Assembly (NCBI RefSeq): GCF_000003815.2
Contig: NC_049994.1
Span: 12,202,236 to 12,266,235, forward strand
Origin: Branchiostoma floridae
Lineage: Eukaryota; Chordata; Leptocardii; Amphioxiformes; Branchiostomatidae
Direction: 5' to 3'
DNA length: 64,000 nt
This document shows positions 293 through 64,000 of this stretch, one piece after another. The notes beneath the pieces were generated by a model, which saw only the letters and a list, made by a program, of their open reading frames with translations, had not been told where the DNA came from and searched no databases. The position numbers and the translations under genes are program-made. Within the stretch, counting starts at the first letter, position 1. The number at the start of each line of letters is the position of its first letter.

Positions 293-463
293 CAACACAG
301 ACAGGAACAGCATTACTCCAGCTTCCATCCCCCTGGCATATCGTTGAGGATGCTCCATTTAGGATGAACCCAGCATTACAGCCAAAAGTCACCACATGGC
401 CCTCAAAATAGGAACCAAGCCTAAAACCGTTCACTGGAACACCAGGGTCTCCACACCATCCAG
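293..463 (-). CDS. CCP domain 6 (last exon in window)
   Basis: 171 nt, phase 1. WCGDPGVPVNGFRLGSYFEG, FGCNAGFILNG and AVPVCVG, followed by a good donor (GTTG/GTAAGA). If the super-repeat holds, the next domain to the left should be an A-type vWA with a Thr/Pro linker. Confidence 0.9.
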
Positions 464-733
464 CTGGGGAGGGGGATAAACATTGACATTATGGGTTAAA
501 AATCTGTGAGTAGGTGTGTGAGTGAAGGAATGAGTGAGTGAGTGAGTGAGTGAGTGAGTGAGTGAGTGAGTGAGTGAGTCAGTCAGTCAGTCAGTCAGTC
601 AGTCAGTCAGTCAGTCAGTCAGTCAGTCAGTCGGTGACTGAGTGAGTGAGTGAGTGAGTGAGTGAGTGAGTGAGTGAGTGAGTGAGTGAGTGAGTGAGTG
701 AGTGAGTCAGTCAGTCAGTCAGTCAGTCAGTCA

Positions 734-791
<58 letters not shown>

Positions 792-32221: not shown

Positions 32222-32987
32222 GAATCTGGCGACAGGCATAAACCACCTCACACAGCCTCCAAGATCAGTGACAGGGGTGATCTGACGTGATCGGGCAGAG
32301 GGCCTGGTCAGCTGGTTTCACCTGCCGAACAATCATTCTGGGAACTGAATTATTACATTTTTGGCAACTATTTGAATTCTTCGTTTCTTCTCAGGCGACA
32401 GCCATTTTTTAGGGTGTGAAATCCCACCCGTGGCTCTAATAATCTTCTAACCCATCAACCTATACGAATGTTGTTGTGCATCTTTTGTAAAACATTACAG
32501 GGGTTGTGGGAAAATGAAGGAACCAGTGAAGCTGCCTATAATTTGCGCCATATCAAGGCGTAAAGTCAGGCGACAGCATTTCGACATTTAAATGAGAACG
32601 AGCCATTAGAGGCAATTATCACTTGATTATCTTTCCCCGATCGGGCTCACCCAGTGCGCTTGTGCGGCCCTGCTCGACACGCCCAGAATCGACTTCAATA
32701 TTTCCTTTGTCATGGAAAATTGCGTCAAGACTACTCTCGCCCCCTTTTCCGGACTTGTCCAGGTATGTATAATCTCTGTCTGCACTTGTCCAGGTATGTA
32801 TAATCTCTAGGACAGTACAACCCCACCCCTGGAAATTAGGCTTTTTGTCCAGTGACGTTTTTAAATTCTTATTTCTCTGTGATAATTTTTGTCACTTTTG
32901 TTTACAGCTGCAACAGCTCTTACTACTCGCACGGCAACTGTACATTTCCAACTTCAAACGCCAGTGTCAATACATGAACAATTGCAA

Positions 32988-34136
32988 ATGATGAATAATA
33001 CGATAACAATGACTGAAACGGGTCTTGTGAACACTACCAGGAACGTTGTAGAATTCGATGCCATCTCAGACCCCACGTCCAAGGGTTTTCAGATCGCCTA
33101 CGACGCCGTTTGTCTGGTCGTCGCCGTAGTGTGCAACACGCTGGTCATCTTTCTCGTCTGCAAGACGGAATCTCTCCATAAACCAAGACACTACCTGAGA
33201 TGTCATCTAGCCGCCGTGGAGATCGTCTTTGCCACAATTTTGATACCTTTTAACATTGAGACAGTTGTGAATGGACCACATACCATACCATTTGCATGCG
33301 AGCTACTATATGTCATTGGCAACTTGTCAGGTATCGCAATATTCGGTACATACTTCTTGATGGCCATTGATATGTATTATTTCATCTGTCACCCTTTACG
33401 GTATAACACGCAGGTGTCTGTCCGAAAGGTAGCGTTAGGTATGCTTGTGGTAGATGTTTTAGCTATATCTATAGGAATTACACCTGTCGCTATTGCTGGG
33501 GAGATGAAATCATCGGGCAGCCTCCAGTGCGCCCCAGAGGCGATAGACAGCGTCCAGGCATCGGCGGTCATCAGAAATTTGGGAATCGTCTTTCAAATCA
33601 TTTTCGTATTGATAATCTTTATACTATATTACTTAGTGTTCAAAGAAGCCAGGCAGCAGCAAGAAAGAGATGCGAATCAACACTTGCGAATTTATCAGAC
33701 GAGGGCCTTCAAAACCATGGGTGGCCACGTTATTATTCTTCTTGTTTTCCTGTCGGCTACTATATTCCTGATAGTTTCACGGCGGGCTGTCCTTGTACAT
33801 GAAGGGAATCCATCCGACGCGCAGCTCATAGCTCACAAGGTCGCTGTGCATCTCTTTCGAACCCTATCACCAATGGCGGACCCGTTGGTTCATAGTCTTA
33901 GGGTGCCAGACTTTAGGAGGGCGCTCAAGCGGCTGTTCCAGCGATCTCACCGGGTGGATGTTGCAACATCATCCAGTTATCAAGCGACAGGTGTTGCATT
34001 TGTACACGCAAAGCCTACATCTAGTTTTGTGGACAAGGACAGCCAAGTAGAAATAAACAGCCGGCTAGATGAAGAGAAAGATGCCGTAACTGGTAACCCC
34101 GTGGTATGCATGTCCTTTTCAGAAGATAGTGACTAG
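32988..34136 (+). CDS. Atypical class A (rhodopsin-like) seven-transmembrane receptor
   Basis: 382 residues in one coding exon. A strong acceptor (TTTGTTTACAG) at 32907 precedes it, so earlier sense codons would be UTR. I start at the first in-frame ATG after it; a second ATG follows immediately. The N-terminus has several N-glycosylation sites (NNT, NTT). Seven hydrophobic segments are visible, with the TM3 Cys (FACELL) and an ECL2 Cys (LQCAPE). Core motifs are altered: LAAVE for LAxAD in TM2, DMY for DRY (followed by ICHPLRY), no CWxP in TM6, and DPLVH for NPxxY, then VPDFRRALKRLF as helix 8. The tail is Ser-rich. Ligand unknown; I could not assign a subfamily. Confidence 0.87.
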   Translation: MMNNTITMTETGLVNTTRNVVEFDAISDPTSKGFQIAYDAVCLVVAVVCNTLVIFLVCKTESLHKPRHYLRCHLAAVEIVFATILIPFNIETVVNGPHTIPFACELLYVIGNLSGIAIFGTYFLMAIDMYYFICHPLRYNTQVSVRKVALGMLVVDVLAISIGITPVAIAGEMKSSGSLQCAPEAIDSVQASAVIRNLGIVFQIIFVLIIFILYYLVFKEARQQQERDANQHLRIYQTRAFKTMGGHVIILLVFLSATIFLIVSRRAVLVHEGNPSDAQLIAHKVAVHLFRTLSPMADPLVHSLRVPDFRRALKRLFQRSHRVDVATSSSYQATGVAFVHAKPTSSFVDKDSQVEINSRLDEEKDAVTGNPVVCMSFSEDSD

Positions 34137-37105: not shown

Positions 37106-39807
37106 ATGTGGATTTTTGCCATCTTAACAGGTGAGAACGTACAATTAACGTTATGTTATTTCTAGTGTAACGCTAGATATCGCGACTACCGTGATCTGTG
37201 AACCAACAAATTTTCAATTTTTTTTTTCAAAATTGGTGGTATTTTAGTCTGTACTACTTCCTTGACATATTTTCTATGGTAAACATGACATCACAAAATA
37301 AACAAATACACTTGTTTTTGTACTAATGTCACCTGAAATTAATACCAAACTAGAACATTCCATAACTTTAGAATGCGAAAAACAGAATGATTTCGATCGG
37401 TATCATGATATTCTTGCTTCTGTTTTCGCCTTGAAATAACGGCAACACTGACAACAGCTGTCAGCAAAAGCTTTATTTGTTATTGTTATCAACTACATGT
37501 ACTATAAACAAACAGTCATGTATGATTAAACTTTACTAGCTTAAAAACTTTTACATTTGTCCTGAACCAAGCAAGACTATAAGCATTTCAATACGGAAAG
37601 CTTAATCCTCTCCTAAGACACATATTGTCTATGGTTTTCTGGCTGAGAGCACTAATGCCTAACACGGAAGTATATGGGATGAATCTTTCTAGCCCATCTT
37701 GCTCGGTGACGATTATTACTTATGTCTGACCTATAGTTCCCTTTTAGTTACCCCTCTTACTGCAAAAAAGAATGGCTATACGTCCTACCTTACGAATATT
37801 GCATGCTAAGCAAGAAATGCTAGATAAGAACTTGGTGTCATTCTACGTGATTATACATTTCACCCTATCCTTGGTGGAAAATACGAGTAAAATCACAGTA
37901 AAAATACAGTAAGATTATATGAAAATTGCAGTAAAATTACAGTTAAATTACAGTAAAGCTATTCTATATGTTCTTCTTTAGCGCTGGTGAGTACCAGGAA
38001 CACAATGGGATATACGGCTTGGTCAACGTACAGCGCTACCACTATGGAGACTACAGAACCCCCTTCCACTATCCAGACTACAAAACCCCCTTCCACTATC
38101 CTGACTACAGAACCCCCTTCCACTATCCAGACTACAGAACCCCCTTCCACTATCCAGACTACAGAACCCCCTTCCACTATCCAGACTACAGAACCCCCTT
38201 CCACTATCCAGACTACAGAACCCCCTTCCACTATCCAGACTACAGAACCCACTTCCACTATCCAGACTACAGAACCCCCCACCACTATCCAAACTACAGA
38301 ACCCCCTTCCACTATCCAGACTACAGTACCCCCTTCCACTATCCAGACTACAGAACCCCCTTCCACTATCCAGACTACAGAACCCCCTTCCACTATCCAG
38401 ACTACAGAACCCCCCTCCACTATCCAGACTACAGAACCCCCTTCCACTATCCAAACTACAGAACCCCCTTCCACTGTGAAGTACACGGAACAAACCTTCA
38501 CAGTAGAGACTATTACCATTATCTATACGACACATGCCCAAGCCACTACCCAAGCTGCTGAACCTTCTATCACAACCCAAAGTACAGAAACAGCAACCAA
38601 CACGTTTAAAGGTGGGTATAGACTTATAGATGACGAACCAGTTAAGTTGTAAGCGTATATTCTATAATTTCAAATATCGTAGATATTTCCAGTGCCAGAA
38701 CCATTACAATGGTAATATGTACTTATAATATAGTTATTGATAATCATGCCCATTTCATGTCGAATTTCATTTGTATTGTCTTTGTCTCCGTCAGCAGGGC
38801 CAGCCCTTTGTAATAGCCTCAGTGTAGTTGGGCTGTGCGTACTAAACAGCCAAATCCATACCTATAAATATATGCAGGGTGAATATATCATATCATATCA
38901 TATCATATCATATTACAAAATACAGAATGCATAATTTTGAGCCTTTTGATCTAAACGATGTAGAAATGACTAGCTCTTACTGTGTGTTATGCCTAATCTG
39001 AAGGCAATAATTCCTAAACGCGTCTAACATTGGTAAATATTACAGGTAACGTTACTACTACCTCCACTGGAACCAGCTCCTTACTACAGACTGTAGGCAT
39101 CCCGTTGTCTGTCATTGGTGGTCTCGTAATTATAGCTGCCGTAGTCATCGGTGCTGTTGTGATAAGGAAAAGGTGGGTTATTTCGTTTCTTTCACAAAAT
39201 TCTCATGTAGCCTCGTCTCCTTGTCTTCCTTTTGGGATATACAAAACCAATTAGATATTCTACAAGAATACATCGGTTATAGAACGGTATGACTTATTCA
39301 TATGATAATATACATGTAATTATTTGTATAACCATATATATCCGTATGTGCTTTTTCAGACAAATTGCAAAGAGAGAAAGCAGTAGCATTTCGCCTACAG
39401 CACTTGCGATGGGACCTTTAACATCCAGGTACCGAAATCCTCAAGAGGAAGAGTCTGAGTATGACAGTCTAAACTATGATGCCATTGCAGTAAATTACGC
39501 CAACTCGCCCCCTCCCAAGCAAGAAAGAGGTGCACATGGTAGTTACCCAAGCTTTCAAAATGTCGACACAACGTACATGAATCTAAACCCTTCCACCACG
39601 TCCGCATATTCTGCGAATGATGACACTTCGTACCTGGATCTTAACCCCTCCTCCGTATCACAGAATGACCCGGATGTGGACACTACGTACCAGGATCTAA
39701 ACCCCTCCACCATGTCTGACTCCACATACACTGGTCTAACCTTCCCAAGCGCGGAGGAACACATCTATTCCAATGAAGTTGGCGAGGGTCTGTACGAAAA
39801 CGTTTGA
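37106..39807 (+). CDS. Mucin-like type I membrane receptor with multiple YxxL/I tail motifs
   Basis: Four exons join in frame: 37106-37130, 37982-38611, 39046-39172 and 39360-39807 (409 residues, phases 1, 1, 2). The signal peptide is split by intron 1 (MWIFAILT then ALVST). The ectodomain is Thr/Ser/Pro-rich, with 16 units of nine residues (consensus TTEPPSTIQ), likely heavily O-glycosylated. A single membrane helix (GIPLSVIGGLVIIAAVVIGA) ends in VVIRKR. The tail of about 150 residues has YDSL, YDAI, YMNL, YLDL, YQDL and YTGL, then YSNE and YENV, which match SH2-binding patterns (YxxL/I, YxN). Three of them lie in a repeated DTTYxxLNPS unit every 19 residues. By analogy to ITAM/ITIM proteins I infer tyrosine-kinase signalling. 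No globular ligand-binding domain is visible. Confidence 0.86.
38059..38480 (+). repeat. Coding minisatellite, 27-bp unit, about 16 copies
   Basis: Unit CCTTCCACTATCCAGACTAC plus AGAACCC. Most copies are identical; a few carry single substitutions (for example EPT, VPP, PTT variants). It encodes the mucin-like repeat. Confidence 0.96.
38884..38914 (+). repeat. (ATATC)n microsatellite
   Basis: A short run of five-base units in the intron before the membrane-helix exon. Confidence 0.85.
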
Positions 39808-45499: not shown

Positions 45500-45664
45500 A
45501 TGACAACCACCTGCGACGATGATCAGAAACTTCTCCAAGTAGTAGACTCGAGGCTTCTTAAAATCATCGAAGAAACGGCCGAGGAGCGCGCAAAAAAGAT
45601 AGTGGAGAAATGTCTCAAAGATCGCGATGCGAAGATAAAGGAACAGAGAAAAAAAGACATCAAG
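45500..45664 (+). CDS. DEG/ENaC copy 1 exon 1: charged cytosolic N-terminus
   Basis: 55 codons from the ATG, ending phase 0 at AAG/GTATGA. It is rich in Glu and Lys with heptad-like Leu/Ile/Val spacing (QKLLQVVDSRLLKII), suggesting a coiled coil. The same exon heads copies 2 and 3, which supports the start codon. The acceptor (CATACAG) is at 45474. Confidence 0.88.
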
Positions 45665-48600
45665 GTATGATACGAATTCCTTTTTATATTTTACATTTTA
45701 ATTCTAATTCTATCAATGTTATTCTTCTAAAAGCATTATCATTGCCTGTGGCTGTATCTTTCAATTTGTTCCCATGAAAACAGACGATGACAAAGGAATT
45801 CTGTACCACCACCACCGCCCATGGCATCAGCCGAGTGGCAGAAGCTGACACAGTTAGATCAAGGTATTCACTCATCCATTTATGTAAAGTACTCCGGTTC
45901 ATGTCTGTAGTCTAGCCGCTAAGAGAAACAAATGCTTGTCTAGCTACTACAACATTCGTCATTTTTCCTCCATGAAAAATAGAGTTTTTTATGGATGATG
46001 TATCGGGGTATATCTTAAGACCTGCTGGATGGATTGCGATGGTATTTGGAAGATGAGGTGATATCGATTTGGGGCCTCCTGGTCTTTAACCTTGGTACTG
46101 CAGCATCGTTTTTATCCATTCAGCCCTGGATGTGCTGTGATTCTTCATTTACAGTTCGGAAATTGGTATAAGGGTGAAGCTGCGTAAATTTGGGCCCCTA
46201 GCAGGTTGCTTTGGATCTCCAGGGTCGCTTCTTTTTTTTTTTTTAACGATACCGTTAAAACATTCGAATGAGATTTTTTAAAGCTCTGAGTATTTCATGG
46301 AGGTATGATGTCTGAGAACTCTTCTTTTATTTATTTTTCTCTCCAATCGGGACACAGGATCATTTGGACCGCCATACTCATCACCTGCGTCACGCTGTTC
46401 GTGTACCAGGCCGCCATCTTGATCAAAGCGTACTTTGAGTACCCGGTCAACGTCGACATCAAAGTTGTGGACAACAACAAGCTCACCTTTCCGTCCGTTA
46501 CTGTCTGCAACAACAACCGGTGAGTAGATTTGTGTTAAGTCTGTACAGGTACAAGTGATCACAACTGCATCCTCTGGCTATCGCAATCATTTTTTGGTTG
46601 TTGCCTCTAACCAATTCTCCCACTGACCAAAACATTCAGAAGGCTAACGTCACATTTCCAAACCTGGGCCCGGCCGGGATGTTTGCGGAAACGAAAAATA
46701 GAAATATATGTACAAATATGCGTAAATAATTCCTACGATCTTTACGTCTTGTGTAGTTCGAAGTCTTTTATATAATACTTTTCGTTCCCGAAAGCTACCC
46801 GGACGGGCTCTGGTTAGGAAATGTGACATAGGCCTAAAGTGGTCATCCATGTACGAGATCATTGTCTTCAAGTCCCATGAGTGATCACTAAGGACAGGTT
46901 TGACAGTACGTTTTGGGGTTATGTTGGTAAATATGGTGCCTTTTGAGTTTCTGAGATGTCAAGGCAAAATCTTTCGTGAACGTTTGATTTCAGATTGCGC
47001 AGATCCATGCTAAGAGGCACCCGACATGGCGCTTTGCTGGAGCTGGATGAGCGGACTGAACGTGACGTGCGGAACTACTTGTGGGGAAAAGAAGGCGACA
47101 AAAACGGCATCGTACCTGAAATAGCCGACCGTCCTTATGGTCAGGGAGTGGAGGTCGTCTATCTCCCCTATGATAGCACCGATGCTTCTACGGAATGCAG
47201 GTAGGTCCTATGTACTTAGGCAAACTGTAAACCTACTTAGCACCAGCAAGTACATGATATCAACATTTATCGGACCATGTATCTACCTACCATGTATCTA
47301 CTTATTGTTTATTTCATACATACTGACGCACAAAAAAGACAATCACCAAAGAATGTATTACACTAGCATGCAAGTTGCTATTTGACTCTCCTCTATGCGT
47401 TTTCTAAGATTTTAGACTTTGATAGTTGCAGCTAAACAAGAACATAACCACACACTTGCCTACAAAAACCACGGACAAGGTATGCAGAGTACAATTTTTC
47501 ATCGCCGTTTGCTATTGTTTGGAATTTACTCATTACATTTCAAAAGCATGTTCCAAATTTGTTCAACTTCTTTCATTCAAACATTCAACTTTTGACCTTG
47601 CTTGAATTAAAATATGGTTATCAATTTATAAAGGTCGGGATGTTGATATTGTATACATTTATAAAATTCGACGCAGCTACTCATCTTAGCCTCCATTCTT
47701 AATATAAAGTACCGGGAAACTACTACGTAAACAGCAAAATCACTTCTATTGAGGCGTTTTCCAAGACAGTAGAAAATAACGGGCATCCACATTTTCTTCA
47801 GACTCCATATCATTGTATAATTCTGTGAAATTTCTATGCTTGTTATGCTCTTCTCCATATTAGACGTCGGTCTCGACATTTGTGCACCTTGGCTCAGCTC
47901 TTGAGAGCGCCTGAAGATCACACACGGTCAGAATGGAGCTACTTCGACCAAGAGGGGTGGGCAGCTAAGCTCTTCCATCAGTGCAACGCGGACGGTACTT
48001 GTGACATGTGCTACAATGACAAGTATGAACTATCAATTGTTTCTCTTTCCTTCAATGGCTGTCATTAGATTAATATCAACATTACATTTTTATGTTATAT
48101 TTTTAGAATTCGTTTTAGGAGACTGGCAACAGTTTATGTAACTTCTGCCCAGTAGAAAAGTCACTTATAGTCTGGTTAGCACAAACTCAGTTTAAGATTT
48201 ATCTATGGATCCAGATTTCTAGAATTCCAATTAGTGTAGTGCAGCTAGAAGCACAATAAACTTAATCTTTTATGAACGACACCTTTTTAACAATGCCTTG
48301 ATTGATGTCTATTTTGCAGGATACTTCTGAGACGTGTAGACGACATCAACGCTAAAATCAACTCCACGCTCTGCTGCGAACCTGACAGTTACGTCACTCT
48401 AACCAATCAAACGTTTGAAACTCACACCGAGGCTTTGGAGTCAAGCGCATGCGCAAACTTAGTTGGCGCTGTGCAGGGCGAACCGTGCTCCGCTAGTCAG
48501 CTGATAACAGCCTACCAAGATGGCAGACGTTTTGACGGCTGGGGATGGATTCATGCAAGGCAAGGTGTTCAGATGATGTTAAAAGATAACTGTTCAAGCG

Positions 48601-51600
48601 ACACTAAAACAACATGCTACCGTGAAGTACTCCCAACAAATGAGACGCCCCAAAAAGCCGGTTTGTTTTGTTGCTCTCCTCAAATGTGCGTACAGTCAGA
48701 ATGCACGGCCAAAGTTCCCGGATGCAGCAATCCGCTTGGAATGGAGAGTGGTAAAATATACGACCATCAGATTTCAGCGTCTTCATTTCTCGAAGGTTAC
48801 CCAGCAGAGTACGGTCGATTGAATTCCAAGTACGCGTGGAATTTTGCTCCCTACTCTGATGAGAATCCGCGCTTTGCGGTAGATCTTGGCAGAACGGTCA
48901 TCCTCACGGGGTTGATAATACAAGGAAACGTTCAAACGTATGGTTTACAGTACGGTGTGACGTCAACTGATTGGTCAGACTATGTAGATGAGTATGGTGA
49001 AGTCGTCCTTTTCTGCGGTCACGTCAACGGCAATGGTTACAACTTCCAGCATCTGTCGCACCCTGTCTTAACCCGACACGTCGCCATTCTGCCTCGTTCC
49101 AACGGACAGAACGAATGGGGAAATAAAAACATGAGAGTTGAGTTTCTTGGATGTGAAGAGAATGACTGCATCTTTGGCATCTTTCTACATCCTGTATTAC
49201 CGATAATGAGCATGATAGATCCGAGCTCCATCAGCTGCAGCAGCAAAGACTGTGTGACAAACGTCACCACATATCGCGGAACCGTACGGTCTTCTGGTAA
49301 CGCAAACTGCCAGGACTGGACCTGTCCTAACCGGTACTTCGACTATTGCCTGGAGGAAAACTTCTGCCGGTTTGCACCGAATGGAGATCGCACAAACCTA
49401 GTCTGTCCTTCTGCCTCTGGTTCCCAAGAAGCGAACCTGACTTCTACTCCCTGTCAGTCCATCCCGAAATGTTCCATCAGCGAGAATGACGACGAACCAA
49501 TATTCCCCACAAGGCACAGGTTTTACCAGCAAACTTACGCCGCCCAGTACTGCGAAGAACGTGGGAAACAATTATGTTCCCTAGAGCAGCTGGTCTTGTT
49601 AAACACATTCAAAGATGTCAAGGCAACTGAATGGGGCTGGATCGGTGATAAGGACATGGAGGCTATATTTGAGGAAGACTGCACAAACTCAACTTCGGAA
49701 TTTTGTTTCAAAAACGTTTATCGATATCGAGTTGCACACGAAGGACGAAGTGTAGCTTACTGCTGTGACGACTCCCTGTTTAAACTCACGAAGAATAAGT
49801 ACCGTAACCACAGTAGTGCTGAGAAAGGCTGCCTTGACCAGGGAATGCAACTTTGTCTACCTTCACAGCTACTCGCCATCCATGGTGCTTCCATCAGGCG
49901 CGATAGTTACCCAGAGGACATTGCGTGGATCAACATGGCCGACAAAATTGCACTGCTTAACGAAACCTGCGGGTGCAATGTTGGCGAAGGATGCTTCGAT
50001 TATAGATTTCCTTTATACGAAATCAATCGCTCTGAAACGTACAAAGCATTATGTTGCGAGGAGAGTTTCTTCCTCAGTCAGGACACGTTTTCCGAGCAGT
50101 TGGAGGCCTGTGCAGTATGCAACAATACAGACAAGCAGACCTGTTCACGCCTACAACTCAATAACTTGTATACCGACGGCGTTAGAAACGAAGATTTCTC
50201 ATGGTTTTCCGAGCCACATGTTGTAGCTCGTCTTCGAGCTCAGTGCAACACATCGGATCCTAACTGTGACCACTATGTAACTTACAAAAATGTCATTGCA
50301 TCCAACGGCGCGGCCCTTCCTGTCTACTGTTGTAGACCAGAGTCAGACACAACGCTGTCAAATCAATCCATGGCACAGAGAGCTGATGTCACTAATCACT
50401 TTATGGGCTGTAACAACCCGCTGGGTATGGAGAGTGGCGTTATCTTACGAAATCAGATTCAAACGTCCTCAATCCTTGACCAGAAACATTCACCAAACCA
50501 CGCCCGGCTTAACAGCGTGTCCTCCTGGAAAATGGAGGGAAATGACACCATGCCGTGGATACAAGTGGACTTACTGAACTTACATATGTTGGCCGGGGTG
50601 ATCATACAAGGAGGCGGTAAGGATGGTGGCTATGTCTCATCCTTCTCATTATCCTTCAGCATCAACGGAGATCAGTGGCTGTCTTACACGGAAGACGAAA
50701 CGACACATGTGGCAACATTGTTCGTCGGAAACAAAGATGGCGACACCCCAAATCACGTATACCTTCCCCGCGCAGTCGCAGCTCGATACGTACGACTGCA
50801 CCCAAAGTCGTTGAAACGAACAGGAGGCGTACGCCTCGAACTAGTCGGATGTAGATCCTCCAGTTGCACGATTGCTAGTAAAGCAAATGAAAAAGGTGTT
50901 CAGTTTTATCATCATCATCAGGCGATGTGCGCGGAACCCGAGTGCATTGTGGGTCGTGGCCTGAACTACAGAGGCAAGCAGAACGTCACCAGAAGCGGTC
51001 GGCCATGTCAGAAGTGGAACTCGCATGACCCACAGGATCATTGCACCACACCCTCACTCTACCCGGATGCAGATCTATCTGAAAACTACTGCCGTAACAT
51101 ACCGGATCACCCGTCTAAAGCACCGTGGTGCTTCACAGGCGAGCAGGACTGGGAGTACTGTCATGTCGAACGTTGTGAAGTTGGCTGTGTCGACTTGAAG
51201 CTAAACTCTGTTGGTGGAGAGAACGACTGGGATGGATTCCTTCTCAGCTCAAACACAGATGATTACACAGACATCACAGACTTCTCAATGGCTACACGAG
51301 AAGAGATTGCTGAGATGGGTCACCAAAAGGAAGACCTCATCCTACAGTGTACCTTTGACAAAGAACGTTGCTCATTGGACGATTTTAAAGTGACGCAAAA
51401 CGCCAAATATGGCAACTGTTTTACCTTCAATCATGGCGAAGACGACAAAGTTCGAACCACGACCAAAGTGGGAGCGGAGTTCGGTCTAAAACTGACACTG
51501 TCAATCGAGTCTGACGAATACGTGGGGCTCTTTGGTCAGGATCCCGGAGCAAAGGTCACCATACACAGTGTCGGTTCGACGCCATTCCCTGAAGGCAACG

Positions 51601-52298
51601 CTCTCAATACCAAACCTGGAGAGAGCACATTCGTCGGCTTGAAACGCAGTTCTGTCAAACGACAGCCACATCCTTACGGAGACTGCACTTCATACCAGGA
51701 AAGAGACGAGTTGTACGGGGGAAGGTATACGTACGAAACGTGTCAACATTCATGTCTGCAGGCAGCCTTACTGGACAAGTGTGACTGTTCTGACGAACTG
51801 ATTGCCATCAATAGCACATTGTGTAGTGTACTGAACAAGACACAGGAGTGCTGTCGCCAAGAAGTCCGAAAACGCCACGAAGACGGCAACCTTCCTTGCA
51901 ACTGTCAGCAATCCTGCGAAGAAGATTCTTACGCTCTTTGGCTGTCATCTTCCTTGTGGCCATCAGACAGGTACGTCTGGTACGTCTTGGATAACATCCA
52001 CACCAGGAGCCGGGCTCGAAATCTGCCGCTCAGCCCAGATGAACTACGACAAAATCTCACGAGAGTCCACGTGTACTTCCGTGATTTGAATTATGAACTG
52101 ATCAATGAAAATCCGACTTACACTGAGGAAACTTTACTCAGCGGCCTCGGTGGATTGTTAGGACTGTATGTGGGTTTGTCTGTCATTACGGTCTTTGAGT
52201 TTATCAACTTGGTCGTTGATGTAGTGAAGGTTGCTTGCAACAAAGAAAGGAAAGAAAGGAGCAACATGGAACCCCCGGTCATAATGACAGGTAACTGA
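45500..52298 (+). CDS. DEG/ENaC-family channel subunit with discoidin and kringle extracellular domains (copy 1)
   Basis: Six exons: 45500-45664, 45784-45863, 46358-46519, 46994-47200, 47864-48022 and 48320-52298; 1,583 residues, all phases consistent. Residues 1-55 form a charged, probably helical cytosolic segment. TTTTAHGISR holds the family HG motif, TM1 is about 83-108, and FPSVTVCNNN follows. Then come five Cys-rich modules (about 203-277, 302-376, 668-738, 762-836, 854-928), F5/8C 1 (393-535), a degenerate kringle (562-642), F5/8C 2 (954-1102) and a canonical kringle (1127-1211). The DEG/ENaC palm resumes near 1267 (ILQCTFDKERCS, GNCFTFN). The Cys-rich thumb, LSSSLWP and TM2 (1531-1560) with the G-x-S filter (VGLS) follow. 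By family it is a trimeric, amiloride-class sodium channel subunit. The insertion falls where ASIC/ENaC carry the finger region. The gating ligand is unknown. Confidence 0.92.
45966..46303 (+). repeat. Dispersed repeat with CCTCCATGAAA ends (copy 2)
   Basis: Starts CCTCCATGAAAAATAGAG and ends TATTTCATGGAGGTA, an inverted terminal pair. The interior CTGGATGGATTGCGATGGTA and GGGGCCTCCTGGT match the copy at 41575-41940. It lies just upstream of the TM1 exon of DEG/ENaC copy 1. Confidence 0.7.
46649..46827. mobile_element. MITE (179 bp) in intron 3 of DEG/ENaC copy 1
   Basis: GTCACATTTCCAAACCTGGG and the right end read inward, GTCACATTTCCTAACCAGAG, form an imperfect ~30-bp inverted repeat extending into CCCG-CCGGG. 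It has no coding capacity. The matching intron of copy 2 lacks it. Confidence 0.78.
48320..52298 (+). CDS. DEG/ENaC copy 1 exon 6: single 3.98 kb exon with most of the ectodomain and TM2
   Basis: One exon of 1,326 codons including the stop. It encodes the end of Cys module 0, modules 1-4, both F5/8C domains, both kringles, palm, thumb and TM2. Shuffled domains are normally bounded by introns, so their fusion in one exon suggests retroposition, intron loss or insertion of a processed block. Confidence 0.9.
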
Positions 52299-52567: not shown

Positions 52568-52856
52568 AGATATAGCTATAACAAATAAGCATCTTGGAAT
52601 GCCTTCTCACTGATTGTTTATCACATCTTTATAAACAAGAGAGTTCTGTATGCATTGATAGATTTGGAAAATTCCCATATGAAATCATTGTATTTGGTAG
52701 TTGAAATATTTTTAAACTATCGTTTAGCAAGTTTTCCATCATAATCATTTTGAAATGCTGTTAAAATATCAGAAGTAGTGAAGAAATTGATTTGCACTTT
52801 AAGCAATTAGTATTGAAAATGTAAATCTAAGTATGCAGATTACAGTATGCTTATTT

Positions 52857-53045
52857 TGTTGGGACAATGCTAAGGCCTCTCTTTCATTACGGTTTATAAT
52901 CAATTCGGTCTTTGATGAAGTACAGGTAGTTTACAACAAGGGAAGAAAAGATAAGAACAACCTGATAATGATCATGATGACTGGTAGCTGACGTACAGGA
53001 CGAATGCGTATCATGACTAAGTGAATTAGAAACAACTATCTGCCA
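52857..53045 (+). pseudogene. Decayed copy of the DEG/ENaC 3' end (relic 1)
   Basis: It matches the last ~180 bp of the coding exon and following UTR: CATTACGGT, TTCGGTCTTTGA, GGAAGAAAAGATAAG, ATGACTGGTAGCTGACG, GTATCATGACTAAGTGAATTAG. The membrane-helix codons are disrupted. A diverged duplicate of the 3' UTR follows at about 53085-53350. Confidence 0.8.
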
Positions 53046-53511
53046 TCGCAGACTCCACTGTCAAGCCAGAAGTTAGGGTGATTGTTAACAAGAATAGACA
53101 TGCAACTTTGAGTGATATCTGTACTTATACCGGTCTCATAGAAGCACAAAGTACGAACTGATGTCACCCTTTGTGTTTACAACGAAAACTGTGTGTATTC
53201 TATGTAGTCGAAATGCTGAAAATAGTAATGCATTATATGTAATTAAAAATATAGCTATAAGATTTTGGAATACGTCAACACTGATTAATATTACACTTTG
53301 CTTAACATGAGAGTTCTGTATCTATTCATTTGATAGGTTTGGAATGGTTCTATATAGAATAACTGGCAAATTGGTGGTCAAACCCTCAATTTGGCAAGTT
53401 ACACATCTTCAATCATCAATGCTGTTACAGTAGTAATATCATCAAAATCCTGACAGAAATGTATTGCACTACAAGTAATTGGTATTGACAACATAGAGTC
53501 ATCTAATTAAT

Positions 53512-53690
53512 GGTAAGCCCATTGGGATTGTATGTAGGTCTATCTGTCATTACGTTTGTTGAGTTTATCGTTGATGTAGCGAAGGTTTTCTGTTACAAAG
53601 GTAAAAAAGAAAAGAGCAACATGGAACCTCATGTTAATGTCATGCGGCTGACGGGACGAATGAGTACCATGAGCAAGTGAATCATCGTTA
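53512..53690 (+). pseudogene. Decayed copy of the DEG/ENaC 3' end (relic 2)
   Basis: TTGGGATTGTATGTAGGTCT and CTGTCATTACGTTTGTTGAG are followed by AAGAGCAACATGGAACC. It corresponds to the TM2 tail and C-terminus, with a small deletion in the helix. Nothing upstream of TM2 is present. Confidence 0.82.
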
Positions 53691-55032: not shown

Positions 55033-58000
55033 ATGACAGCCACCAGCGACGAAGATCAGAAGCTGCTCCAAGCCATAGACTCGAAGCTCCAAAAAGTCAT
55101 CGAGGAAGCGGAGGAACGTGCGAGAAAGATAGTCGAGAAAGGTCTTAAGGATCGAGACGGAAAGATAACGGAACAGAGGAAAAAAGACATCAAGGTATGA
55201 CATGAATTCCTTTTTGAAATTCTACTTCCTGATGAATGTTATTCTTAAGCATTATCAACGCGTACGCCTGGCTCTATCTTTTATTTTGCTCCCATGATTA
55301 CAGACGATGACAAAGGAATTCTGTACGACCACCACCGCCCATGGCATCAGCCGAGTGGCAGAAGCTAACACAGTTAGATCAAGGTAATTACACATCAATT
55401 CATGTAAATCATTATTTATCATTTTATGTCGCTAACGATGATGTGCTACGGTTCAAGAATGGCAACCATTTACAGTACCGAAAGCTCGACATTCACTGCA
55501 GTACTTATCATTTTCCTGATTTATTATTCTCTCTAATCTCTACACAGGATCATTTGGACCGCCATACTCATCAGCTGCGTCACCCTGTTCGTGTACCAGG
55601 CCGCCATCTTGATCAAAGCGTACTTTGAGTACCCGGTCAATGTCGACATCAAGGTTGTGGACAACAACAAGCTCACCTTTCCTTCCGTTACTGTCTGCAA
55701 CAACAACCGGTGAGTAGATTTGTGTTAAATCTGTACATACAACTAACACTGCATGAGGATCACTTGGCTATTGATACACACTCAAACCTGTACTAGTGAT
55801 CACTCTATACTTGATATAAGGATCATTTGGCCATTGCTAACGTTATATAGACAAACCTGTGCAAGTGACCACCTTTAGTTAGGCTTTACAAAAGGACCAC
55901 CAGACTGTTACGGCTGTATATTTTGTTTGTTGTCCCTAATCACTTCCTCCACTGGCACGATCAACAAGAAGTCTGCCTACAGTGACCACCCAATTAGATA
56001 GTTCTAGTTATCCTAGTCCCGTGATTGGTCACTATGGATAGGTTTGGCTTTGTGCTTACTAATAGGCTAGCAATTCAAATACAGTTCGTTTTGAGTTTTT
56101 AGACTGACAAGGCAAACTTGAGGGAAAGTTTGGAATAAAACTTCATCGAGTTGATCGATTTCAGATTACGCAGATCCATGCTAAGAGGCACCCGGCATGG
56201 CGCTTTGCTGGAGCTGGATGAGCGAACTGAAAATGACACGCGGGACTACTTGCGGGGAAAGAGAGATGTACCCTCTATGACCATATCCACGACTGTCGAA
56301 CACGATCCCATTATCATTCCCATGTATAGCAGGAGACTCCAAGTCGGCTATCTCACGAACGAAAGCACCGATGCTTCTACGGAGTGTAGGTAAGTCCTGC
56401 GTGGTTAATGTTACACACTATGTAAGATTTTAGAATTATCATGTTAAAGTTGTAGCTAAGTACCAAGACCAATGTGACACTTCCCTGTAAAACATTGACT
56501 AAATCGGAGTACAATTTTTCAATGCTGACGGGGTCCTGGAAGGCGGGGCAAAACTGCTTCCACGGCAAACTCCCTTCAGTGGCAAACTTTCTTTTCCGGC
56601 ATAAGAGAACATAGCCAATTTTGATAATCACCAACCCCCCTCCCATAAAATAAAAGCCTGGCCCGCTCGAAATCTCCGAAGGTGACTAGTTGAGCACTGA
56701 GTAACTACTACGTCATGCAAAAGCAACAAACTTCTCCAGTTTTTTTATGCGATTTCTAGGAAGGCGGTTCCAAAGACATGAGAAGGACACTGACGTCTAC
56801 AAGCTCCATATAACTATAATCCTGCGAAATAATTTCTACATACTTACTTTTCTCTTATCCATTATAGACGTCAATCTCAACAACTGTGCACCTTGACTCA
56901 GCTCCTGAGAGCACCTGAAGATGACACACGGTCAGAATGGAGCTACTTCAGCCAACAGGGGTGGGCAGCTAAGCTCTTCCATCAGTGCAACGCGACTGGA
57001 CAACATGATACTTGTGACACGTGCTACAATAACAAGTACGAACTATCAATTGTCTTTCATTCAACGGCTGTCCTAAAATTGATATCAACTTTTGATATTA
57101 CGGCATATTCAGAATATATGTTTTGGAACCTGGAAATTTTCTGCCTTGCAAAAAAGTTTTTTATTGTCTGTGTAGCGTAAATTCTCAATTCCATATTTCT
57201 ACGGATCCAGATTTCCAGTGTAAAGGCAGCAAGAAGCACGATAAACTTTTATCTCTTCTGAACAGCACCTTATTCAACAATGCTTTGATTGATGTCTCTT
57301 TTGCAGGATTCTTCTGAGACGTGTAGATGACATCACTGCTAAAATCAACTCCACGCTCTGCTGCAAACCTGACAGTTACGTCAAACTAACCAATCAAACC
57401 TTCGAAACTCACATCGAGGCTTTGGAGTCAAGCGCATGCGCAAACTTAGTTGGCGATGTGCGCGGCAAACCATGCACCGCTAGTCAGCTGATAACAGCTC
57501 ACAAAGATGGCAGGCGTTTTGACGGCTGGGGATGGATTCGGGCAGGGCAAGGCGTTCAGATGATGCTAAAAGATAACTGTTCAAATAACACCGCAGCATC
57601 ATGTTACCATGAAGTACTACCAACGAATGAAACGCCTCAAAAAGCCGGTTTGTTTTGTTGCTCTCCTCAAATGTGCGTGCAGTCCGAATGCACGGCCAAA
57701 GTTCCCGGATGCAGCAATCCGCTTGGAATGGAGAGCGGGAAAATATACGACCATCAAATTACAGCGTCTTCATCTGCCGTAGATTACCCACCAGAGTATG
57801 GTCGATTGAATTCCAAGAACGGGTGGCAATTTGATCCCAACGATGATGAAAATCCGCGCTTTGAAGTAGATTTTGGCAGAACGGTCATCCTGACAGGGTT
57901 AGTAATACAAGGAAGCGTTAAAACTTATGGCATACAGCACGGCCTGACGTCGACTGATTGGTCAGACTATGTAGATGAGTATGGTGAAGTCGTCCTTTTC

Positions 58001-61000
58001 TGCGGTCATGTCAACGGCAATGGCTACAACTTCCAGCATCTGTCACACCCTGTCTTAACCAGTCACGTCGCCATTCTGCCTCGTTCCAACGGACAGAACG
58101 ATTGGGGAAATAAAAACATGAGAGTTGAGTTTCTTGGATGTGAAGAGACTGACTGCATCTTTGGCATCTTTCTTCATCCCGTATTACCGACAATGAACAT
58201 GATAGATCCCAGCTCCATCAGCTGCAGCAGCAAAGACTGTGTGACAAACGTCACCACATATTGCGGGACCGTTCGGTCTTCTGGTAACGACATCTGCCAG
58301 GACTGGGCCTGCCCTAACCGGTACTTCGACTATTGCCTGGAGGAAAACTTTTGCCGGTTTGCACCGAATGGAGATCACACAAACCTAGTCTGTCCTTCTG
58401 CCTCTGGTTCCCAAGAAGCAAACCTGACTTCTGCTCCCTGTCAGTCGATCGCAAAATGCTCCATCAGCGAGAATGACGACGAACCAATATTCCCCACACG
58501 GCACGGGTTTTACCAGCAAACTTACGCCGCCCAGTATTGTGAAGAACGTGGGAAACAACTGTGTTCTCTAGAGCAACTGGTCTTGTTAAACGCATTCAAA
58601 GATGTCAAGGCAACTGAATGGGGCTGGATCGGTGATAAGGACATGAAGGCCATATTTGAAGAAGACTGCACAAACTCAACTTCGGAATTTTGTTTCAAAA
58701 ACAATTATCGTTATCGAGTTGCAAATGAAGTACGAAATGTAGCTTACTGCTGTGACGACTCCCTGTTTAGACTCACGGAGAAGACTTACCATAACCACAG
58801 CAGTGCTGAGAAGGGCTGCCGTGACCAGGGAATGCAACTTTGTCTACCTTCACAGCTACTCGCCATCCATGGTGCTTCCATCAGGCGCGACAGGTACCCA
58901 GAAGACCTTGCGTGGATCAACATGGCCGACAAAGTTGCACTGCTTAACGACACCTGCGGCTGTAATGTTGGCGAAAGATGCGTCGATCATAGATTTCCTT
59001 TATACGAAATCAATCACCCTGAAGCGTACAAAGCGTTATGTTGTGAGGAGAGTTTCTTATTGAGTCAGGACCAGTTTTCCAACCAGTTGGAGGCCTTTAC
59101 AGTGTGCAACAAGACCGGCAAGCAGACCTGTTCGCGCCCGCAACTCAATGACTTGTATAACGACGGCGTTCGAAACGAAGATTTTTCATGGTTTTCCGAG
59201 TCACATGGCGTGGCTCGTCTTCAAGGTCAGTGCAACACATCGGATCCTAATTGTAACCCAGGTGTAACATACAAAAATGTCATTGCATCCAACGATACGG
59301 CCTTTTCTGTCTACTGTTGTAAACCAGACTCAGTCAAAACGCCGTCAAATCAATCCATCCCAAAGAGAGCCGATATAACAAATCACTTCATGGGCTGTAA
59401 CAACCCGCTTGGTATGGAGAGTGGTGTTATTTTACGGGATCAGATTCGAACTTCATCTATCTTTGATCAGAAACATTCGCCAAACCATGCCCGGCTTAAC
59501 AGCGTGTCCTCCTGGAAGATGGCGGAAAATGACACCACGCCGTGGATACAAGTGGACTTACTAGACTCACATATGCTGGCCGGGGTGATCATACAAGGAG
59601 GTGGTAAGGATGGTGGCTACGTCTCATCCTTCTCATTATCCTTCAGCATCGACGGAGATCAGTGGCAAATGACAAATTTGCCGACGTTGTTCGTCGGAAA
59701 CAAAGATGGCCAAACCCCAAACCACGTATACTTTCCCCGCGCAGTCGCCACTCGATACGTGCAATTGCACCCACGATCATGGAAACGAACAGGAGGCGTG
59801 CGTCTCGAACTAGTTGGTTGTAGATCCTCCAGCTGTGCGATTGCAAGAAAAACAAATGAAAAAGGTGTTCAGTTTTATCATCATCATCAGGCGATGTGCG
59901 CGGAACCCGAGTGCATTGTGGGTCGTGGCCTGAACTACAGAGGCAAGCAGAACGTCACCAGAAGCGGTCGGCCATGTCAGAAATGGAACTCGCATGACCC
60001 ACAGGATCATTGCACCACACCCTCACTCTACCCGGATGCAGATCTATCTGAAAACTACTGCCGTAACATACCGGATCACCCGTCCAAAGCACCGTGGTGC
60101 TTCACAGGCGAGCAGGACTGGGAGTACTGTCATGTCGAACGTTGTGAAGTTGGCTGTGTCGACTTGAAGCTAAACTCTGTTGGTGGAGAGAACGACTGGG
60201 ATGGATTCCTTCTCAGCTCAAACACAGATGATTACACAGACATCACAGACTTCTCAATGGCTACACGAGAAGAGATTGCTGAGATGGGTCACCAAAAGGA
60301 AGACCTCATCCTACAGTGTACCTTTGACAAAGAACGTTGCTCATTGGACGATTTTAAAGTGACGCAAAACGCCAAATATGGCAACTGTTTTACCTTCAAT
60401 CACGGCGAAGACGACAAAGTTCGAACCACGACCAAGGTGGGAGCGGAGTTCGGTTTAAAACTGACACTGTCAATCGAGTCTGACGAATACGTGGGCCTGT
60501 TTGGTCAGGATCCCGGAGCAAAGGTCACCATACATAGTGTCGGTTCGACGCCGTTTCCTGAAGGTAACGCTCTAAATACCAAACCTGGAGAGAGCACTTT
60601 CGTCGGCTTGAAACGCAGTTCTGTCAAACGACAGCCACATCCTTACGGAGACTGTACTTCATACCAGGAAAGAGACGAGCTGTACGGTGGAAGGTATACG
60701 TACGAAACGTGTCAACATTCGTGTCTACAGGCAGCCTTACTGGACAAGTGTGGCTGTTCTGACGAACTGATCGTCATCAATAGCACATTGTGTAGTGTAC
60801 TGAACAAAACACAGGAGTGCTGTCGTCAAGAAGTCCGAAAACGCCACGAGGACGGCAACCTTCTTTGCAATTGTCGGCAATCCTGTGAGGAAGATTCCTA
60901 CGCTCTTTGGCTGTCATCTTCCTTGTGGCCATCAGACAGGTACGTCTGGTACGTCTTGGAAAACATCCACACCAGGAGCCGGGCTCGAAATTTGCCGCTC

Positions 61001-61267
61001 AGCCCCGATGAACTACGACAAAATCTCGCGAGAGTCCACGTGTACTTCCGTGACTTGAATTACGAACTGATCAATGAAAATCCCACTTATACTGAGGAAA
61101 CTTTACTCAGCGGCCTCGGTGGGTTGTTGGGACTGTATGTAGGTCTGTCTGTCATTACGGTCTTTGAGTTTATCAATTTGGTCGTTGATGTAGTGAAGGT
61201 TGCTTGTAAGAAAGAAAGGAAAGATAAGGGCAACATGGAACCCCCTGTCATAATGACTGGTAGCTGA
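55033..61267 (+). CDS. DEG/ENaC-family channel subunit with discoidin and kringle extracellular domains (copy 2)
   Basis: Six exons: 55033-55194, 55304-55383, 55548-55709, 56165-56389, 56868-57035 and 57307-61267; 1,585 residues, with the same phases and domain order as copy 1. Differences: one codon fewer in exon 1; a longer, diverged middle of exon 4 (after ENDTRDYLRG); a 5-codon gain in exon 5 net of changes; and a shortened loop in F5/8C 2 (QWQMTNLPTLF). The canonical kringle and proximal palm are identical in protein to copy 1 from EKGVQFYHHH to LLDKC, while the region before is only about 85% alike by eye. G-x-S (VGLS) and the C-terminal MEPPVIMTG are kept. Both copies look functional and may form homo- or heterotrimers. 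Confidence 0.92.
57307..61267 (+). CDS. DEG/ENaC copy 2 exon 6: single ~3.96 kb exon
   Basis: It starts after TTTTGCAG at 57306 and reads ILLRRVDDITAKINSTLCC onward to the stop. It carries the same string of Cys modules, F5/8C, kringle-like, F5/8C, kringle, palm and TM2 as copy 1. No frameshift or internal stop was found. Confidence 0.9.
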
Positions 61268-63636: not shown

Positions 63637-63994
63637 ATGACAGCCACCAGTGACGAAGATCAGAAGCTCCTCCAAGTGGTAGACTCCAGGCTCCTTAAAA
63701 TCATCGACGAAACGGCTGAGGAGCGTGCGAAAAAGATAGTCGAAAAATGTCTTAAAGATCGCGATGCGCAGATAAAGGAACAGAGAAAAAAGGACATCAA
63801 GGTATGCTTCGAATTCTTTTTTTTTTATTCGATTTTGAATTCAATGAATGCTGTTCGTCTCAAAGAATTACCGACGCCTGTGGCTGTATCTTTCATTTGT
63901 TCCCATGACATCAGACGATGACAAAGGAATTCTGCACCACCACCACCGCCCATGGCATCAGTCGAGTGGCAGATGCTGATACAGTTAGATCAAG
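63637..63994 (+). CDS. DEG/ENaC-family subunit copy 3 (first two coding exons; cut by right edge)
   Basis: Exons 63637-63801 and 63915-63994 encode a charged N-terminus nearly identical to copy 1 (MTATSDEDQKLLQVVDSRLL) and the HG-motif exon (FCTTTTAHGISRVADADTV). It ends phase 2 with donor AG/GTATTC six bases before the window end. The TM1 exon should follow. Whether the gene is intact cannot be judged here. Confidence 0.85.
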
Positions 63995-64000
63995 GTATTC

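Follow-up and report, generated by a model that had tools for sequence, protein, structure and literature searches.

The gene P1 of the lancelet Branchiostoma floridae, located in the 64-kb stretch of genomic DNA analysed here (the window), almost certainly encodes a single-polypeptide DEG/ENaC channel subunit that carries an array of extracellular modules in its finger. The finger of P1 displays 1,064 extra residues (aa 174-1237), inserted in its outer part after the first finger helix and before the last, and this insert makes up 1,064 of the 1,428 ectodomain residues, nearly three times the remaining ectodomain. The array is arranged as two Link-like modules, a discoidin domain and a degenerate kringle, followed by three Link-like modules, a second discoidin domain and a second kringle. 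An earlier note on this DNA had claimed such an array of more than 1,000 residues inside the finger of one channel polypeptide, and single open reading frames of paralogues support this. The channel-array fusion recurs in 11 genes of the B. floridae genome, P1 included, the scope being this genome alone.

P1 was predicted from genomic sequence as six exons, 4752 nt when joined, which encode 1583 residues, and GT/AG borders with compatible phases are found at all the predicted exon junctions (Table 1). The splice borders, the phases and the Pfam matches bear out at the sequence level the six-exon gene that had been proposed. Exon 1 is 76% and 84% identical to the corresponding segments of two other copies in the window (tblastn). 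Three observations rule out a chance origin of P1: the 1330-codon open frame in which exon 6 lies, the E-values reported below, and paralogues that are recognisable down to 36% identity.

Table 1. Features of P1 and of its tandem copies; all coordinates are positions in the 64-kb window.
Feature	Position	Strand	Content or basis
P1, window gene, B. floridae	45500-52298	+	
P1 exon 1	45500..45664	+	cytoplasmic N-terminal segment, aa 1-55
P1 exon 2	45784..45863	+	aa 56-82, HG gating motif TTTTAHGISR; ENaC gamma alignment
HG motif of P1	45820-45825	+	
P1 exon 3	46358..46519	+	TM1 (aa about 82-108) and first palm strand FPSVTVCNNN; basis includes hydropathy
FPSVTVCN of P1	46488-46511	+	
P1 exon 4	46994..47200	+	finger helix-1 region (aa about 136-165), then start of insert and of L1
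P1 exon 5	47864..48022	+	most of Link-like module L1
P1 exon 6	48320..52298	+	3979 nt, one open frame, from end of L1 to stop codon
Link-like module L2	48384..48686	+	
Discoidin (F5/8C) domain 1	48711..49154	+	Pfam F5/8C; 35% identity to discoidin 2, blastp E 2e-23
Degenerate kringle K1	49233..49472	+	aa 563-642
Link-like module L3	49494..49781	+	Pfam Xlink E 9.2e-4, 19.9 bits, below cut-off 27 (module alone)
Link-like module L4	49770..50072	+	
Link-like module L5	50061..50345	+	
Discoidin (F5/8C) domain 2	50400..50855	+	Pfam; matches neuropilin-2 and factor VIII C domains
Kringle K2	50925..51176	+	Pfam Kringle E 7.9e-20, 71.4 bits vs cut-off 34.3
Finger end, palm, knuckle, thumb, TM2	51267..52205	+	ASC profile positions 129-453
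TM2 with GLS selectivity motif (LLSGLGGLLGLYVGLSVITVFEF)	52131..52238	+	ASIC1 and ENaC gamma alignment, hydropathy
P2, second intact tandem copy	55033..61267	+	1585 aa, six exons and phases identical to P1
P3, third tandem copy, exons 1-2	63637..63995	+	continues beyond window

The DEG/ENaC landmarks ascribed to P1 in the earlier note are all present, namely the HG motif, TM1, the FPSVTVCN strand, palm and thumb, and a TM2 with G-L-S. The Pfam ASC family (PF00858) matches P1 in two stretches with an E-value of 1.9e-83 (281.5 bits against a cut-off of 23.6), and the two hydrophobic regions, TM1 and TM2, are recognised by hydropathy. The AHG of P1 aligns with the HG of ENaC gamma and its GLS with the GAS of ASIC1. 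Residues 9-459 of the P1 core, defined as the 469 residues left when aa 1-50 and aa 174-1237 are removed, align in one stretch with residues 20-473 of ASIC1 (6ave; E 1e-50), and the core matches ENaC gamma with an E-value of 5.5e-52. Scores against two subfamily profiles stay below the curated cut-offs: the ENaC subunit profile TIGR00859 gives 326.3 bits with the core and 252.8 with exon 6 alone (cut-off 428), and the degenerin deg-1 profile TIGR00867 gives 293.7 and 218.3 bits, respectively (cut-off 598.45). A weak Innexin match (E 0.035, 13.7 bits against 25) was dismissed as a transmembrane coincidence. In the alignment to ASIC1 the histidine H73 of ASIC1a is absent from P1, which has Val at that site, while Lys is kept at the site of K211; we take these numbers to denote the aligned ASIC1 residues. 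Both residues are given as near-completely conserved among the ASICs compared in an extract of PMC10507113. The acidic-pocket stretch SQDEPP of ASIC1, the single stretch compared, reads SVGSTP in P1. By likeness to other DEG/ENaC channels, P1 subunits would trimerise and form an amiloride-type sodium pore.

The array is built of three module types. Two discoidin domains, already proposed from the sequence, are confirmed by Pfam F5/8C (PF00754; E 3e-31, 108.6 bits against a cut-off of 28.2, two stretches). As for the kringles proposed alongside them, K2 is well formed and matches the kringles of plasminogen and HGF, but K1 is degenerate and is not called by Pfam Kringle (PF00051) in P1, its assignment resting on the match to K2 (blastp E 3e-5; hhalign with the K2 profile E 1.3e-6). 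When P1 was compared with itself by BLAST, repeat pairs within the protein did not show up, and the block repeat of the array is argued instead from a match across paralogues.

The modules that had been regarded as novel and Cys-rich proved in profile comparisons to be five copies of one divergent Link (Xlink)-related module. A profile built from 14 aligned Link-like modules matches aggrecan (E 3.8e-10), LYVE-1 (0.0062), TSG-6 (0.031) and CD44 (0.14); of 13 sequences found at E <= 10, 12 are Link proteins, and the reversed profile, used as control, returned no matches. The pattern A..C..G..L...QL..A...G....GW is common to these modules and Link proteins. Pfam Xlink (PF00193; cut-off 27 bits) is surpassed in P6 (63.0), P10 (47.6) and P11 (50.5), whereas the scores of P1 (16.7), P4 (19.0) and P7 (19.8) lie under the cut-off. 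Pairwise comparison of the five P1 modules gives a best E-value of 1.6e-11, with three of the ten pairs at E > 0.1 or without a match. The classical Link module contains two disulfides, C1-C4 and C2-C3, with C2 located in C-x-GW. All 14 aligned modules lack the Cys of this site and display another Cys in QLC instead, and because of this exchange hyaluronan binding by the modules is not established. The alignment of the profile with TSG-6 spans TSG-6 residues 15-57 only, and most hyaluronan contacts of TSG-6 presumably fall beyond this segment. AlphaFold models of two single modules are poor (pLDDT 54.5 and 56.3), and a Foldseek search with the second model gave none at E <= 0.001 among 281 matches at E <= 10; the 50 of these 281 that were listed are, by title, presumably C-type-lectin-like or Link folds, which was not counted as proof.

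Three paralogues join channel and array parts within one frame. In P10 (938 codons) and P11 (933 codons) one open reading frame holds the HG motif, TM1, Link modules, F5/8C, kringle and palm entry, covering ASC profile positions 1-90 and 1-87, and the next exons yield positions 174-455 and 166-455, respectively. In P8 a single 1288-codon frame spans finger helix 1 to TM2. These single-frame fusions in P10, P11 and P8 exclude, for the family, the possibility that the exons belong to separate genes, the outcome that the earlier note would have taken as its refutation. A gene-model artefact, in which neighbouring DEG/ENaC and matrix-protein genes were joined by mistake, is likewise most improbable. 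The six exons of P1 were indeed joined from genomic sequence alone, and an extract of PMC3927609 presents gene prediction errors that give false domain architectures as a known problem. Against such a joining, exon 6 by itself links modules to palm, thumb and TM2, P10 and P11 link TM1 to modules within one frame, and homology to TM1 and the first strand precedes the modules in all 11 genes, split in P6 into two short pieces. The number of Link-like modules varies among the genes, with five in P1, four in P10 and P11 and three in P8.

Furin-type processing was also considered. No R-x-[RK]-R site is present in the P1 insert (all of P1 was scanned), the sole P1 match lying at aa 136, just after the palm strand. 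The scan also covered the big open reading frame of P6; for P2, P4, P5, P7, P8, P10 and P11 it took in the big exon, and for P3 and P9 just the 3' part of that exon. Sites ahead of the first Link module were found only in P6, P10 and P11. ENaC-like furin gating was rejected as a general mechanism on this distribution.

Selection was measured between copies. P1 and P7 differ by a dS of 1.08 and a dN of 0.158, giving a dN/dS of 0.146; by block the ratio is 0.24 and 0.17 in the Link blocks, 0.17 and 0.24 in the discoidins, 0.24 and 0.07 in the kringles and 0.07 in the core. Between P1 and P2 it is 0.21-0.39 in L1-L2, FC1, K1, L3-5 and FC2, 0.17 in K2 and 0.07 in the core. Purifying selection is acting in every block tested. 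Some 3' relics lie downstream of P1, and P9 is a frame-broken member; both would suit the reading of P1 as a pseudogene or decaying copy, to which we give very little credence. The big exons of P1, P2, P4, P7 and P8 have no internal stop, and the pseudogene reading was rejected since dN/dS is well below 1 in every computable block. The same data bear on a chemosensory or immune receptor channel, in which the pore would be gated when the array binds a glycan, lipid or protein that is either soluble or microbial, and tandem copies would diversify recognition. Five copies stand in tandem at the P1 locus and three on C6, and between P1 and P2 the majority of array blocks have evolved faster than the core; both observations favour such a receptor. 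On the other side, dN/dS exceeds 1 in no block for which the ratio is computable and modules of these types occur widely in matrix proteins, and we regard this receptor as fairly unlikely.

On balance, P1 is probably a channel subunit whose finger bears an extracellular tether of its own and which is modulated by a force or a ligand. Tether or ligand binding at the finger could plausibly be its main function, with somewhat less assurance, and a stimulus that is mechanical rather than chemical is a tentative and rather doubtful refinement. All three module types act as ligand binders in other proteins, and because of this the direct sensing of a glycan, lipid or matrix ligand suggested in the earlier note can now be predicted more specifically. 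Each subunit would carry its own array above the channel, where the Link and discoidin modules may bind a polymer of the matrix or glycocalyx (a hyaluronan-like chain or some other glycosaminoglycan), a membrane or a protein partner. Through such binding the channel would hold its own tether, and a pull on, or binding to, the array would shift the finger against thumb and palm and change opening. Several observations count against this reading: the faster evolution of most array blocks, which relaxed constraint or a shift of ligand would explain as well, the frame-broken P9, the Xlink scores of P1, P4 and P7 under the cut-off, the exchanged Cys, the short TSG-6 match, the weak likeness among the five P1 modules and the poor single-module models. 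Alternatively the array might merely localise or stabilise a leak channel at the matrix or a cell junction, with no role in gating. The module types of the array are adhesive in other proteins and the core without the array aligns like an ordinary channel, both of which suit a passive anchor, but the insert lies inside the finger, which in relatives adjoins the acidic pocket and plays a part in proton gating; this is a less obvious anchor site than a chain end, and this alternative appears unlikely. The tether at the finger has mechanistic precedent in three papers: a matrix-tether model is proposed for degenerins (PMC10148893), ENaC shear sensing depends on N-glycans joining ENaC to matrix and glycocalyx (PMC7165135), and hyaluronan synthesis first appears in amphioxus (PMC7226759).

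The route by which matrix pull is passed on to DEG/ENaC channels has long been debated, and it is difficult to probe as long as the tethers put forward are proteins distinct from the channel. The P1 family presents tether-type modules covalently in the finger, with open-frame paralogues whose varying Link-like counts form a natural series for finger-to-gate coupling. The finger of DEG/ENaC thus accommodates an insert far larger than the rest of the ectodomain, and the members of the family are candidates for channels that sense matrix or microbes in an animal closely related to vertebrates. More speculatively, and improbably on present estimates, the family may have turned the finger into a matrix-binding lectin array, each being a sodium channel that is both tether and pore, gated by force or polymer without a separate matrix linker. 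L040, an unrelated lancelet DEG/ENaC, has some 1,080 residues of mucin-like sequence inserted from near the same place in the finger; if the lectin-array proposal were true, this second case would mean that extracellular sensors have been added to the finger repeatedly.

A search of one open-access library found no described channel with this architecture, in agreement with the earlier note. P1 resembles ENaC and ASIC1 in the HG motif, two TM helices, FPSVTVCN strand, Cys-rich thumb and G-x-S filter, but differs from them by the 1,064 finger residues of Link-like, discoidin and kringle modules. The module pattern is shared with aggrecan, LYVE-1, TSG-6 and CD44, from which the P1 modules differ in lacking the C-x-GW Cys, and to our knowledge the Link modules of these proteins do not occur in a channel. 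Similarly, P1 has two F5/8C domains per subunit, a domain type of neuropilin-2 and factors V and VIII, which are soluble or single-pass proteins without a pore. The GRIP domain of ENaC is an added finger sequence that controls gating and is short and protease-released; P1 too has added finger sequence, but its insert is long and devoid of R-x-[RK]-R. GRIP is named in PMC8791634. In the model for MEC-4/MEC-10 and UNC-105, as outlined in PMC10148893, the channel is pulled via a matrix made of separate proteins, whereas in P1 the matrix-type modules lie within the channel itself.

The gene under study, P1, encodes a DEG/ENaC subunit whose channel part is interrupted by a large array of extracellular modules. 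The window was placed at C16:12202236-12266235 in the 513-Mb, 431-contig lancelet genome, and the open frame holding the last exon of P1 extends over 1330 codons from stop to stop, with the stop codon of the gene at 52298. Pfam ASC matches P1 (E 1.9e-83) in two stretches with the insert in between, and ENaC gamma from solved structures aligns to residues 49–162 and then again to 1252–1564. With residues 1–50 and 174–1237 removed, the 469-residue remainder (positions 9–459) aligns with residues 20–473 of ASIC1 (6ave, the chicken protein) in a single stretch (E 1e-50), thus locating the insert between the first and last finger helices. The last of these helices reads 'MATREEIAEMGHQKEDLILQC' in P1, aligned to 'MLEFYDRAGHDIREMLLSC' of ASIC1. 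In contrast, a lancelet DEG/ENaC frame on contig C8 lacks any insert, both flanks adjoining in one 316-codon ORF.

Location of P1, its paralogues (P2–P11) and other features; plain coordinates refer to the window, C numbers to genome contigs
Feature	Location	Strand	Description
P1	45500-52298	+	six exons, GT/AG borders, compatible phases; 4752 nt, 1583 aa
K2 block of P1	50871-51191		aa 1109-1215
P1, P2, P3, P4, P5	C16		tandem
P6	C16		0.5 Mb from tandem group
P7, P8, P9	C6
P10, P11	C1
3' relics	52856-53048, 53522-53680		downstream of P1; end of TM2 with tail
Insert-free frame	C8:11356150-11357646		DEG/ENaC
L040	G000:C2:34713000-34717400		DEG/ENaC; ORF at 303-3950 of this segment
VWA-like frames	1511-12831	-	several open frames
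Scanned VWA frame	10669-11280	-	PF00092, E 3.1e-49
GPCR	32886-34136		Rhodopsin type, single open frame; PF00001, E 1.7e-26
Repeat frame	37957-38652		TTEPPSTIQ-type repeats
Tail-like frame	39283-39807		several Y-x-x-L motifs

The insert consists of Link-like modules L1 and L2, discoidin 1, kringle K1, L3, L4, L5, discoidin 2 and kringle K2. The two discoidin domains share 35% identity (blastp E 2e-23). Of the kringles previously claimed for the ectodomain, K2 stands, while K1 is degenerate and related to K2 by an hhalign match (E 1.3e-6). Residues 835–1187 of P1 (L5, discoidin 2 and most of K2) are colinear with L2, discoidin 1 and part of K1 of P3 (28% identity, E 5e-26), suggesting that the array is a [Link-discoidin-kringle] block in duplicate. 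Only one block, with four Link modules, is seen in each of P10 and P11.

The Cys-rich modules, described in the earlier note as novel, form no novel family by profile comparison. In an alignment of 14 modules (five from P1, four from P10 and five from P6, one of them truncated), Cys is invariant at three columns and at least 90% conserved at three more. Pfam Xlink matched 10 of the 14 single modules at E <= 1 (best 7.5e-7), and the 14-module profile retrieved aggrecan (3.8e-10), LYVE-1 (0.0062), TSG-6 (0.031) and CD44 (0.14) from the PDB. Link proteins made up 12 of the 13 PDB sequences at E <= 10, the remaining one being VEGFR1 (0.34), and the reversed control profile gave 0 matches. The Xlink cut-off of Pfam is passed by P6, P10 and P11; P1, P4 and P7 fall below it. 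By blastp, the five modules of P1 resemble one another weakly: of 10 pairs, the best reaches E 1.6e-11 and one gives no match. In contrast to Link proteins, the modules lack the 'C-x-GW' Cys and carry another instead, which identifies them, on alignment, as Link relatives whose disulfide pattern has changed, so that hyaluronan binding cannot be assumed. Xlink has 46 matches genome-wide, one of which (in P6) belongs to the channel family, making a donor elsewhere in the lancelet genome plausible. Outside the 11 channel genes, 24 Link-module matches of 57–81 bits occur on C2, C3, C5, C6, C7, C14, C15, C16, C17 and C19.

Searching the whole genome with exon 6 yielded at least 39 matches (35 of 671 first-look candidates were scored, so counts are lower bounds), which sort into 11 channel genes and the C8 locus, the remainder falling on the kringle segment of the query. 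Homology to TM1 and the first palm strand lies upstream of the modules in 11/11 genes (in P6 as two short pieces), and the HG exon is present in nine, being not found for P7 and P9 within the stretches examined. P10 and P11 are single ORFs (938 and 933 codons, stop to stop) joining the HG motif, TM1, the first palm strand (FPSVTVCN or FPSVTICN), four Link modules, one discoidin, one kringle and palm entry, which excludes separate genes for channel and modules at the level of the family. Similarly, P8 extends from finger helix 1 through TM2 in one 1288-codon ORF, without L1 and L2. P9 is frame-broken and N runs interrupt P3 and P5; exon-by-exon assembly covered P1 and P2. The P1 model, its 1330-codon frame and the paralogue fusions establish the architecture as real, on a firmer basis than the earlier note had. 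The relics downstream of P1 (DNA identity 75% to P2, 74% to P1) point to tandem duplication and loss in the past.

Nei-Gojobori dN/dS was computed for nine pairs of the exon 6-type big exons or their parts. P1 v P7 (1316 codons) gave dS 1.08, dN 0.158 and a ratio of 0.146, and P1 v P2 an overall ratio of 0.242. Block ratios for P1 v P7 and P1 v P2, respectively, were 0.24 and 0.27 (L1-L2), 0.17 and 0.39 (discoidin 1), 0.24 and 0.21 (K1), 0.17 and 0.39 (L3-5), 0.24 and 0.22 (discoidin 2), 0.07 and 0.17 (K2) and 0.07 and 0.07 (channel core). Core and array are thus under purifying selection, weaker over most of the array. Other ratios were 0.361 (P7 v P8), 0.281 (P4 v P5), 0.162 (P2 v P7) and 0.134 (P1 against the 3' part of P3); dS was saturated, and so yielded no value, for P1 v P4, P1 v P5 and P10 v P11. 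Between P1 and P2 the K2 block has a dS of only 0.048, against 0.36 for discoidin 2 and 0.175 for the core, which suggests local gene conversion.

L040, an unrelated locus, is another lancelet DEG/ENaC with one 1216-codon ORF, in which the HG motif, TM1 and FPAVAICNLN (ASC 1–99, E 3.7e-21) are followed by ~1,080 Ser/Thr-rich, mucin-like residues starting close to the same finger point as the P1 insert. Judged from its sequence, the finger of L040 holds a large insert of another kind than that of P1; a match to the end of ASC (profile 426–455) ~6 kb past the ORF is only putatively part of the same gene. Within the window, the repeat frame and the tail-like frame, whose Y-x-x-L motifs we read as ITIM/ITAM-like, together look like a mucin-like receptor with such a tail, and neither has a Pfam match at E <= 0.01.

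Passages of PMC10148893 describe finger and thumb as helical domains on the outside, with the acidic pocket at their interface with the β-ball, and its section 7 a matrix-tether or gating-spring model for degenerins. Passages elsewhere report that N-glycans linking ENaC to matrix and glycocalyx are needed for shear sensing (PMC7165135) and place the first appearance of hyaluronan synthesis in amphioxus (PMC7226759). Taken together, these make a channel carrying its own Link/discoidin tether the simplest reading; the array would bind and thereby act on gating, both steps being ones we infer. The function of the array channel is directly testable.

Judged by one open-access library, searched for lancelet DEG/ENaC, channels with such domains, hyaluronan, Link modules and shear, the architecture is new within DEG/ENaC: among the papers listed, none was found to describe a channel of this family that bears Link, discoidin or kringle modules, passages of PMC8791634, PMC3927609, PMC7226759, PMC10507113, PMC10148893, PMC7165135, PMC11788884, PMC9822975 and PMC9234716 included. 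This agrees with the earlier note, which knew of no such channel. An automatic domain-database listing may well exist. A published tree contains uncharacterised cephalochordate DEG/ENaC groups, for which the passages of PMC10507113 mention no extra domains. P1 falls below the curated cut-offs for both ENaC and deg-1, as core and as exon 6 alone.

Relative to ASIC1, P1 has Val at the column we take to be H73 and keeps Lys at that presumed to be K211. Both positions are nearly completely conserved among the ASICs compared in passages of PMC10507113. ASIC-type proton gating is predicted to be absent from P1, in which the SQDEPP of ASIC1, near the acidic pocket, corresponds to SVGSTP.
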